Shown piece by piece: positions 38,235-42,873 of a stretch of DNA of 64,000 nt; within the stretch, counting starts at the first letter, position 1; each line of letters begins with the position of its first letter. The position numbers and the translations under genes are program-made. The stretch is taken from positions 35,317 through 99,316 of the forward strand of contig NZ_RHOC01000008.1 of NCBI RefSeq assembly GCF_003946145.1, in the 5' to 3' direction. The notes beneath the pieces are model-generated. The model was not told where the DNA came from, did no database searches, and saw only the letters and a program-made list of their open reading frames with translations. The stretch comes from Levilactobacillus huananensis (lineage in GTDB: Bacteria; Bacillota; Bacilli; Lactobacillales; Lactobacillaceae).

Positions 38235-38609
38235 TTAACGCTCTGCGACCCGCAACCGGATCCAGGTTTGTTGCCACCGTTTAACTGCCAGACGCTACTG
38301 ATAAAAGGAGATCGAGCGTATTACTGTAATTATAATGCGCCATGTAGACCCCATTTTTCACCTGCTACTAGTAGTACTACGGGGGCAGCCACTCGTAACG
38401 CTTCAAGTCATCGCTAACTGTTCGCTCAGGGTCAAAGGAAACAACAGTAACTGAAACGGTTGCCCACCCAAAGGTTGCCAGACAATATTACAAATACTCC
38501 CGCTGCCAGTGCCCCCTTGATTAAGGTGACAATCGCGGATAATTCGAAGAACTTGCGTGAGTTCTAGATTGGCTGTGATAATAATTTGGAGTTAAGATTC
38601 GAGTGTCAT
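38235..38609 (-). pseudogene. Decayed paralogue of the nucleotidyltransferase at 42313
   Basis: Reading the minus strand, this piece follows the intact gene at 42313-42873 from start to stop. It begins MTLES (intact MTPES), then has an in-frame stop. The middle shares ATTATAATGCGCCATGTA and the segment around GTCAAA, and the end reads KRWQQTWIRLRV against KQWQSIWPRLEV. About 190 bp of the middle are missing (375 against 561 bp). Stops and indels make it non-coding. Confidence 0.8.
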
Positions 38610-38667
38610 TGATGTGAGCCCTTCTTGCTATTGATCAACTCAGAATATCTTTAAACCTAAAATCCGT

Positions 38668-39513
38668 TTATCCACCTACTGTGACATTTAATAACTCAGC
38701 ATATGCTAAAGCATCATTCACAATTGCACCTAATCGATACTGTTGTTCTTCCGTAAGATGCGAATAGTTTCGAGTATAATCACTTAACTCATTATCAAAT
38801 TGTCTTACGTTGTGTGTAGCCTCTATTGTCCTTTCTCCAAGATTTTCAATTTCCTTCAAAGTTCCATCGATAATCCTCATCTGCGCAATTAACTTTTGCG
38901 ATGCATCATTCGCTTTTTTTGTTACCTTTTTATTTTTACTGTTCTCCAATGCACTTCCTGTAGCTATTCCAACTGCAGCTAGAGCCCATCCCGCAGGACC
39001 GCTCAGTGCCAATAAAGCACTTCCGCCAGCCATGCCACCACCACCTGCACTTAAAGTCCCGCCACCAAGCCAAGCTAATGCCGCACCATCAGCTGCCGCA
39101 CCATTCAAAGCTGAAATTGCCACACCAGTAGAAGCTGTGCCAAAAGTCGATGCAATTGACATTGCCACAGTTGGTGCCAAAGCAGCTACCCCAGCGCCAG
39201 CAATAATCCCACCACCCATTGCAGTTCCAGCTTTAACATTTAGTTCCTCACTGCTAACTTTAACGTCCTCGATTAATTTTTCGTATCTTGTATACTCAAC
39301 TCTCACTTTTTCTAATTTTACTTTCATGTCAACTGGCTTGTTACGAAAATCATTTATTTTTTCCCATAATCGATTTACATGATCCTTTAGTGCATGCCGT
39401 TTTGTGTACAAGTTTGTAGCTCGTACTACAACTTTATCTCCCTTCTCTTTAAGTTGCGAGTTGATCTCATTCATTCTGGCTACAGCCTTCTTTTTTTCCT
39501 TAAAGTTAAGCAT
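38668..39513 (-). CDS. Unknown protein with coiled coils and a glycine-rich membrane core
   Basis: A 281-residue protein. Residues 1-90 are charged and helical (coiled coil). Residues ~95-190 are a long Gly/Ala-rich hydrophobic stretch (GTASTGVAISALNGAAADGA, then LAWLGGGTLSAGGGGMAGGS and GPAGWALAAVGIATGS) that could form a membrane hairpin or a glycine-zipper pore. Residues 195-281 are again helical. The start has AGGAGAGA. It follows the 440-residue gene by 11 bp, so both form a unit. Base composition is far more AT-rich than the neighbours. I recall similar Gly-rich motifs in many uncharacterised bacterial proteins, but no function can be named. Confidence 0.75.
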   Translation of the reverse strand: MLNFKEKKKAVARMNEINSQLKEKGDKVVVRATNLYTKRHALKDHVNRLWEKINDFRNKPVDMKVKLEKVRVEYTRYEKLIEDVKVSSEELNVKAGTAMGGGIIAGAGVAALAPTVAMSIASTFGTASTGVAISALNGAAADGAALAWLGGGTLSAGGGGMAGGSALLALSGPAGWALAAVGIATGSALENSKNKKVTKKANDASQKLIAQMRIIDGTLKEIENLGERTIEATHNVRQFDNELSDYTRNYSHLTEEQQYRLGAIVNDALAYAELLNVTVGG

Positions 39514-39524
39514 AAAATCTCTCC

Positions 39525-40847
39525 TTAATTATTGAAAAAATCATCAATAGCCGACTTAGATTGTAATGTTTTATTCACATTATTTAAGTGTGCGAACTGG
39601 ATACTATTAGTAAACATCTCTTTACCAGAGCCATCTAAGTCTACCGCTAATTTTTCCAACCTAGAATATTCCAAGTATTCGTTTTGCATCTGTTGAATAA
39701 TTTTTCGATATTTTCTATCAATATTTTCAATGTTTATTTTAAAATCATTTTCTATACTAACCGCATCGTTTTGAACATTAAACTTTAGATTATCCCAAAT
39801 ATGTGTTAACCCCTTAAGCTCGTTTTTAAATTCATCAGATTCTTGGATTTTTTTGACTGTTACAAGTAAACCGCCCCAATCTAATTCTCGTAATCCTTCA
39901 ATTGGATGACCGAGCGTTATCTGACTTAAACTAACAGCGAGATCTTCCGAACTAGCCATTGCATTTGCAATGGCTAATACTTTTTGCCTTTTTGCTATCA
40001 CAAACTCTTCCGACTCATTTGAGTCTCTATATAATAGGAATCTATACATATATCCTGCGATCGCATTAATCAATTCTGATAAACCAGCCTGCGCAAAAAT
40101 ATCCGCAAACCAAACAAAATCGAATTCATTATCTAACAACCATGAATTTATTTCTGCTCCTTTAATTTTCTTTAGATTAGGCAACGCTGATAGACCCGGA
40201 ATAACAAGTCCTTGCTTGGTTCCAATATCAGATGCCAAATGTAGAAGGTGCTTAATAATTGCATCAGGTAACGCTGCCTTATCCTCATTCACAGTTCTAA
40301 CTGCTTTAACAACTGCTCTGGGAAAAGAACTTGGCGTACTAACATAATAGCTGGTGCCCGGATTATCAGGCTCGTATGGTAAAGCCTTGGACGTCCCCAG
40401 TACTAGTTTCGTATTATACGTTACTGTATTGCTCAACAAATTAATCGGTCCAACTAGTAGTCCGATCAACGGATCATGTGCAAGTGTTGTATACCTGTGA
40501 TTACGGCCCCCAATTCCCACCTTTTTGAAGTATGTCGATGATCTTTTAATTGCATCATAAGATGTGGGTCCCAAAATCCACTCTACACGGTCACCGTTAC
40601 TCTTTTCGATATTTTTCATTAACTTATTGTGCTTTATCTTATCTGCACTATCCTGGTCGCTTAACCTATTTCTATTAAGAATATTTTTCTTATTCAACCA
40701 TTGTCTTACTATTTGTAGTCCGGAAATTAGTCCAATAAATAAAACGTCGTCCCGGTTCAGTGCCATTTTCTGAGATTCATTAATATTATGTATAAGCTTT
40801 TGCAAATCTTCATTACCTGGAATGTCAAAATAAACTTTATCGTTCAT
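39525..40847 (-). CDS. Unknown 440-residue protein, partner of the Gly-rich protein
   Basis: A soluble, mostly helical protein without signal peptide. Notable parts: NRDDVLFIGLISGLQIVRQWL (~32-52), a conserved-looking HRYTTLAHDPLIGLLVGPIN (His, His-Asp, ~118-137), KHLLHLASDIGTKQGL (~205) and a C-terminal coiled coil (~350-410). I do not recognise a named domain. The His/Asp-rich block could be a catalytic site. The start has GGTGAGGAA. Low GC and a decayed surrounding suggest lateral transfer. Confidence 0.75.
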   Translation of the reverse strand: MNDKVYFDIPGNEDLQKLIHNINESQKMALNRDDVLFIGLISGLQIVRQWLNKKNILNRNRLSDQDSADKIKHNKLMKNIEKSNGDRVEWILGPTSYDAIKRSSTYFKKVGIGGRNHRYTTLAHDPLIGLLVGPINLLSNTVTYNTKLVLGTSKALPYEPDNPGTSYYVSTPSSFPRAVVKAVRTVNEDKAALPDAIIKHLLHLASDIGTKQGLVIPGLSALPNLKKIKGAEINSWLLDNEFDFVWFADIFAQAGLSELINAIAGYMYRFLLYRDSNESEEFVIAKRQKVLAIANAMASSEDLAVSLSQITLGHPIEGLRELDWGGLLVTVKKIQESDEFKNELKGLTHIWDNLKFNVQNDAVSIENDFKINIENIDRKYRKIIQQMQNEYLEYSRLEKLAVDLDGSGKEMFTNSIQFAHLNNVNKTLQSKSAIDDFFNN

Positions 40848-42312: not shown

Positions 42313-42873
42313 TTAAGCTGGTTGTACTTCGAGACGTGGCCATATCGACTGCCACTGCTTAGCGGCCATCCGTTGCCGATAAATGGCCAAATGCCGTTCA
42401 TCCTGTTGGTAAAACGGAATCGGCTGGCACCGAAGATTGAGTAAGTCATCAACCCCGTGGGGCGCAATCAATCTCAACTCTTCTCCGTCCAGATAGGCAC
42501 CCACACAGGTCGGTACCTCCACAAAATGACCAATGGCATCGACCACTGAGCTGAACTCGGGCGTATCACTAAAATTATAATGCGCCATGTAAACTTCATT
42601 CTTCACCTGCCACTGATATTGGGGCGCCAATCGTGTGAGCTGCGCATAAATCTCAAGATCATCGCTCGCAGGCCGATCGGGGTCAAAAAAAACGACATCA
42701 ATGTCACTAAGCAATTGAACGGCTTGTCCACTGCGTACTTGCCAGACCGTGTTGCGGATACTACCAGCAGCAACCGCTCCCTGCCTGAGATGGCAGTCGC
42801 GAACCAGTTCAAGGATAGACATAAGCTCTGGTGTTGTTTGAATAATTTTTAAAACTTGGGACTCTGGTGTCAT
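42313..42873 (-). CDS. Nucleotidyltransferase family protein (COG3575-like)
   Basis: A 186-residue protein with the minimal nucleotidyltransferase signature: GSIRNTVWQ (~37) followed by SDIDVVFFD (~56), where the two Asp bind metal. The C-terminal part (HGVDDLLNLRCQPIP) is shared by the family. The start follows GAGGAGGG. Substrate unknown. A dead copy lies at 38235-38609. Confidence 0.8.
   Translation of the reverse strand: MTPESQVLKIIQTTPELMSILELVRDCHLRQGAVAAGSIRNTVWQVRSGQAVQLLSDIDVVFFDPDRPASDDLEIYAQLTRLAPQYQWQVKNEVYMAHYNFSDTPEFSSVVDAIGHFVEVPTCVGAYLDGEELRLIAPHGVDDLLNLRCQPIPFYQQDERHLAIYRQRMAAKQWQSIWPRLEVQPA

Follow-up and report, generated by a model that had tools for sequence, protein, structure and literature searches.

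Two adjacent genes, A and B, were identified in a 64,000-nucleotide stretch of DNA from Levilactobacillus huananensis (the window), and we read them as a two-gene candidate anti-phage system. Judged from profile matches, protein B is a chimera of a BnzB-type core, as in the Bunzi system, and the C-terminal tail of PDC-M09B. The chimeric B would likely trigger A, a PDC-M09A protein, which would then enter the membrane of the infected cell and damage it, a reading to which we assign a probability of about 0.6. A preliminary description had proposed a pair of the anti-phage type, a membrane effector with a larger partner, and this candidacy fits the PADLOC families matched, the partnering at 78 of 80 loci and the defence-rich flanks of homologues.

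Layout and composition of the gene pair

Both open reading frames are present as first described, on the same (minus) strand in the order B then A with 11 bases between them. GGAGAGATTTT is the spacer between the stop codon of B and the ATG of A, and the ribosome-binding site of A consequently touches the stop codon of B. The pair comprises the following features:

38668-39513, minus strand: gene A, 281 aa, PDC-M09A; a Gly/Ala hydrophobic core flanked on both sides by helical segments
38959-39231, minus strand: Gly/Ala-rich hydrophobic core of A (residues ~95-185), the predicted membrane-active part
39525-40847, minus strand: gene B, 440 aa; BnzB-type His/Asp core (residues ~27-345) and PDC-M09B-type C-terminal tail (residues ~364-440)
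39528-39758, minus strand: C-terminal tail of B (residues 364-440), of M09B type and proposed to dock A
40227-40241, minus strand: HLASD block of B (residues 203-207), with H203 and D207 kept in 32/32 chosen sequences
40470-40499, minus strand: HRYTTLAHDP block of B (residues 117-126); H117, H124 and P126 invariant in 32/32 sequences

The two genes had been called much more AT-rich than their neighbours, and among the 59 genes of the window, called with our own open reading frame picker, they are indeed the two lowest in GC (B 35.4%, A 41.3%; median 50.2%, sd 3.1). They are also lowest in third-position GC, with 31% for B and 29% for A against 45% for the next-lowest gene and a median of 56%. 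Promoter and terminator scans gave no more than was found in shuffles, and Rfam gave no match. The statement that neither protein has a recognised domain held for Pfam, NCBIfam and PHROGs, where nothing passed a curated cut-off or was convincing, and failed for PADLOC, which matches both proteins.

Protein A

Protein A is a full-length PDC-M09A (PADLOC 1.6e-82, residues 1-279 aligned to 1-280 of 282). The Gly/Ala hydrophobic core noted earlier is borne out by composition and conservation. Across residues 101-180, Gly and Ala make up 45-65% of each 20 residues with a single charged residue overall, and 19 of the 21 invariant columns in 42 aligned sequences fall within this stretch. Its hydrophobicity is modest (best 21-residue mean 1.69). 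The predicted model has long helices at 4-54 and 190-244, with pLDDT below 50 over residues 70-189, and solved structures returned generic coiled-coil or long-helix matches only. No PADLOC match of A to BnzA was found at E up to 1, and the A-family profile matched the glycine-rich part of true BnzA weakly (hhalign probability 53% over 53 columns).

Relatives of A are numerous, with 3698 at E 0.001 among 7996 candidates scored. In public records, five of these M09A homologues (P0019, P0035, P0050, P0060 and P0130) bear the name 'DNA polymerase III subunit gamma/tau', apparently in error. No match to A was found by tblastn in collections of plasmids and phages, a search in which the low-complexity filter may hide matches. 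Kinship with ISG12/IFI6, suggested by the look of the Gly/Ala motif, was rejected, there being no PF06140 (Ifi-6-16) match in the window's own genome at E up to 10.

The core of protein B

Residues 34-296 of B correspond to positions 179-434 of the 504 in BnzB (PADLOC 1.1e-22), and BnzB positions 1-178 and 435-504 are unmatched by B. Across 32 chosen core sequences (8 of the HDP kind with tail, 9 core-only, 5 of the 450-470-aa kind and 10 BnzB-like), the residues D34, H117, H124, P126, G129, H203, D207 and P217 are invariant in all 32. The conserved-looking HRYTT-x2-HDP block singled out in the preliminary description, residues 117-126 of B, holds three of them and is thus conserved in fact among these chosen relatives. 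The two far halves of the core family were aligned by MAFFT, with modest profile evidence between them (probabilities 18% to 88%); they are joined by the PADLOC BnzB model, which matches both.

The predicted model of B has a mean pLDDT of 80.7 and drops to low confidence at 346-357, where the core gives way to the helical tail. For the core, no known enzyme fold was found above cut-off in Pfam or NCBIfam, and its profile matched no solved structure at E up to 10; in another search the best match of B had an E of 0.46 and lay in the tail. Full-length relatives are rare: 11 others at 45-62% identity and three more that are core-only (7998 candidates scored, 5.8 billion proteins), to which a profile search added one further relative of the core kind.

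One tail on three classes of partner protein

Residues 364-439 of B match positions 402-479 of the 480 in PDC-M09B (PADLOC 9.6e-7), and the rest of M09B is unmatched. An adjacent partner bearing this tail was present at 78 of the best 80 of 384 places where relatives of A lie in named genomes. At threshold, it was missing from L043, where the contig ends ~1 kb past A, and from L058, where the neighbour has a sub-threshold tail match (E 0.77). The tail model used here started from 12 window-clade tails; its iteration over 4727 open reading frames (six frames, at least 60 aa) from 89 loci gave 81 matches at E 0.001. Every one of the 81 adjoins A and carries the tail at its C-terminal end; they comprise the 78 above, the window and two same-genus loci, one of them being L005, which is the same contig as L016. 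A model made from class I tails only (classes defined below), without iteration and without any window-clade sequence, recovered all 81 partners and nothing else at E 0.01, including the four HDP-core partners, with window B at 4.3e-11. The reverse test with window-clade tails alone was weaker, finding 35 of 59 class I partners, 4/4 HDP-core, 2 of the 9 BnzB-like and 9/9 class III.

By BLAST the 81 partners fall into clusters of 59 (class I), 13 (class II) and 9 (class III). The class I members tested are PDC-M09B and the class III members tested are PDC-M40B-like (L013 5.2e-76, L061 2e-25). Class II is of BnzB type. It consists of nine loci closer to true BnzB and four with an HDP core like that of the window, namely the window itself, Lactiplantibacillus modestisalitolerans (L010), Ligilactobacillus animalis (L011) and Furfurilactobacillus rossiae (L012). 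A and B lie side by side in 4/4 of these HDP-core-plus-tail loci read, so the two genes do co-occur elsewhere. The nine BnzB-like loci match BnzB as a group at 100% by profile, and the gene beside M09A in L046 matches both BnzB (1.4e-103) and the M09B tail (1.9e-5). A profile of mixed type II sequences contains window-clade rows, so that its 100% match to the window clade tests nothing.

Profile comparisons of the N-terminal halves gave probabilities of 0.3% for classes I and II, 0.4% for II and III, and 16% for I and III (E 0.0016, 108 columns). For the tails, the corresponding values are 98-99% between class I, HDP-type class II and class III, and 91-96% when these are compared with the BnzB-like group. 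Three unrelated-looking N-terminal halves on one tail are what would be expected of a dock. Pairs of M09A with a tail-bearing partner are spread over many phyla.

In a tree of A from which L043 and L058 were left out, the four HDP-core rows grouped with support 89, beside class III. This tree splits the two type II groups, as two independent captures of BnzB-type cores by M09A would, yet a tree holding all 13 type II rows together was not rejected (p-AU 0.476), and independent captures are therefore not claimed. A second type of chimera was seen at L013 (10868-12475) and L061 (8302-9966), where an M40B-type half is joined to the M09 tail beside M09A.

Core genes with other partners

The B profile matched 8 of the 395 genomes of the window's order. 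Core and tail occur together in two genes (G000 and G308), both adjoining A, and the core matches in the six other genomes have no tail. The partners of core-only genes share a common N-terminal segment of ~200 residues in four genomes of the family and on the lactococcal plasmid pNP40. TerB was suspected by eye in such partners and was dropped when Pfam gave no match; a table in PMC10952713 pairs TerB with Shango and Bunzi.

Core genes were also seen in other settings. On the Lactococcus plasmid pLLI11B (L007, 5845-10340) a core-only gene directly adjoins a true BnzA-BnzB pair. On pNP40 (L008, 7053-8510) a WYL-domain gene is followed by a BnzB-type core gene and then by a gene whose product contains EF-Tu domain 3 (PF03143, 7.1e-23) and may act as a decoy or as a sensor linked to translation. 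In a plasmid record of Eubacterium eligens (L009, 4807-9622) four genes follow one another: a WYL gene, a core gene, a dynamin-family gene (PF00350, 1.9e-18) and an uncharacterised one of 251 aa. At five further loci of the order (L159 9463-11435, L160 8418-10391, L161 8753-10710, L162 690-2644 and L163 3050-4927) the core gene is preceded by a Gly/Ala-rich protein of 171-185 aa. The one from L159, which was the one tested of the five, matches BnzA 304-403 at 6.3e-10. These small proteins and their core genes are possibly a minimal Bunzi without the N-terminal half of BnzA.

Distribution and genomic neighbourhood

M09A is sparse in the window's order (Lactobacillales), with 27 of 395 genomes positive, a distribution at odds with constant residence in core loci. 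A tail-bearing neighbour was found at 22 of these 27 M09A loci (the others being L132, L135, L137, L141 and L142), which are not all independent since L121-L125 look alike. The neighbours of homologues were checked for defence genes, and the M09A flanks proved rich in them where controls did not: 141 flanking genes of the 27 loci match 113 PADLOC models at 1e-20 and 132 control genes match 7, a tally that counts models and not proteins. Among the first 25 of the 113 models listed are BrxL, PglZ, GajB, Cas3e, Cas8e, AbiEi, AbiEii, type IIG RM, TmtA and RTasHel. The 7 control models (mad3, C3a214, four IetA models and LmuB) are, in our judgement, of kinds with many housekeeping relatives. The flanking set was 143 genes less two removed before the scan (the BnzB-like partner in L141 and an open reading frame in L143). 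Control genes were taken ~6 to 100 kb away on the same contigs, in 22 of the 27 genomes; the control set left out G071, G422, G129 and G275, whose contigs are too short, and the window's own genome. At the window pair itself, none of the immediate neighbours was recognised as a defence gene.

Among the 35 genomes searched in the window's genus, full-length B occurs only in its own genome, core-only genes in three and a class III M09A pair in two. In the three nearest relatives the pair is absent, the alignment stopping between 38159 and 38610 and resuming between 41067 and 41476. The pair is likely acquired DNA. Two further features border the variable slot or lie near it:

38312-38610, minus strand: decayed nucleotidyltransferase remnant with stops and a frame change, just downstream of A at the edge of the slot
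42313-42873: intact nucleotidyltransferase homologue (PF06042, 5e-45)

The remnant has a blastn match to genome G012 and a translated match (9e-28) to the nucleotidyltransferase of that genome. In G012, G002, G013 and G006 a protein of 718-740 aa is encoded directly upstream of the intact nucleotidyltransferase, and in G007 this place just upstream holds a core gene, its partner and a 113-aa open reading frame. From these varied genes beside the nucleotidyltransferase we conclude that the neighbourhood takes different cargo in different species. A single insertion junction shared across the genus was considered and rejected, since the cargo found just upstream of the nucleotidyltransferase in G007 lies near an ADH gene in G022; the neighbourhood is the same, the junction is not. 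The flanking-gene labels MFS, TetR, ABC and ADH were read from sequence by eye. The 718-740-aa protein (L186 5624-7780; L193 10214-12388) has no family match and appears as an alternative cargo; homology to M09B, M40B-like or core modules was rejected (probability at most 2.6%).

Proposed function and alternative explanations

In the mechanism that we propose, the core of B, with D34, H117, H124, H203 and D207 as perhaps a metal site, would sense infection or make the triggering change, and the tail of B would hold A through its helical flanks. Once triggered, the Gly/Ala core of A would oligomerise in the membrane, and the cell would stop before phage release, as in abortive infection. We give the role of trigger to the core in view of the diversity of its partners elsewhere, several of which look membrane-linked, and that of effector to A on account of its conserved Gly/Ala core. 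The core is constant in one set of combinations and A in another; the window holds both.

The roles could be reversed. A would then serve as a membrane-bound scaffold or sensor, and the effector would be the core of B, working at the membrane as a metal-dependent enzyme whose substrates might, for instance, be lipid or nucleotide phosphoesters. The five invariant His/Asp residues, conserved in 32/32 chosen relatives, are more suggestive of an active site than of a surface that senses a ligand, and the constancy of A beside three types of B would suit a common anchor with exchangeable effectors. Yet the same core occurs with very different partners (Gly/Ala-rich, dynamin-family and EF-Tu domain 3 proteins), which suits a common trigger with exchangeable effectors, and the core profile had no solved-structure match at E up to 10. 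We regard the reversed arrangement as unlikely.

We consider it improbable that the genes are a toxin-antitoxin or addiction pair, selfishly maintained, in which A is a membrane toxin restrained by B and any defence is incidental. Tight linkage of the two genes, a hydrophobic product, patchy distribution and probable acquisition would all agree with such a pair; B, however, is large with a conserved polar core and not built like an inhibitor, homologues cluster with defence families, and tblastn found no M09A in the plasmid and phage collections, subject to the filter mentioned above. A membrane or stress function in lactobacilli outside defence would account for the lack of a recognised defence gene directly beside the window pair, but the sparse and patchy occurrence (27/395 genomes), the absence from close relatives and the defence-rich flanks elsewhere make it very improbable.

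Returning to the reading of B as trigger and A as effector, a wider scheme can be put forward tentatively, at slightly less than even odds. Bunzi, PDC-M09 and PDC-M40 may be one kit, in which a membrane effector (M09A or the glycine-rich part of BnzA) is combined with exchangeable triggers, through a C-terminal dock of ~78 residues in the M09A pairs. The window pair would then connect a Bunzi trigger with an M09 effector, and the BnzB core would represent a new class of metal enzymes or sensors built on His/Asp residues. The natural chimera would show which parts interchange. From it follow the predictions that the BnzB core serves as a trigger for different membrane partners, that the short tail is a plug and that the five invariant His/Asp residues are the working site. 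Results on the chimera would also apply to Bunzi and to M09; the A protein of the latter occurs in many phyla.

Comparison with known systems

LeoBC is a dynamin-like defence protein. Its likeness to the pair is confined to a weak PADLOC match (3.5e-6) with A 150-230, the Gly/Ala end and the following helix, and a Pfam search of A and B at E up to 1 found no GTPase family. The likeness to PDC-M40 lies elsewhere than in the window, at L013 and L061, where an M40B-like half sits on the same tail beside M09A; window B itself has no PADLOC match to PDC-M40B at E up to 1.

Bunzi was reportedly shown to be anti-phage by Millman et al. in 2022. What the pair has in common with Bunzi is the BnzB match of the core of B, the invariant His/Asp residues, which are also present in a true BnzB, and a partner, A, with a Gly/Ala-rich part, as in BnzA. 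Unlike Bunzi, the window has no adjoining BnzA, and B lacks the N-terminal ~178 positions of BnzB and carries the M09 tail instead. The mechanism of Bunzi is listed as unknown in a review (PMC12926258).

PDC-M09 is a phage defence candidate of PADLOC only, and the term was not found in the literature searched. The N-terminal ~345 residues of window B show no relation to those of M09B (hhalign probability 0.3%), and the gene order is B-A in the window versus A-B in the canonical class. Like PDC-M09, however, the window pair has a full-length M09A, two genes side by side and a B protein that ends in the M09B tail.
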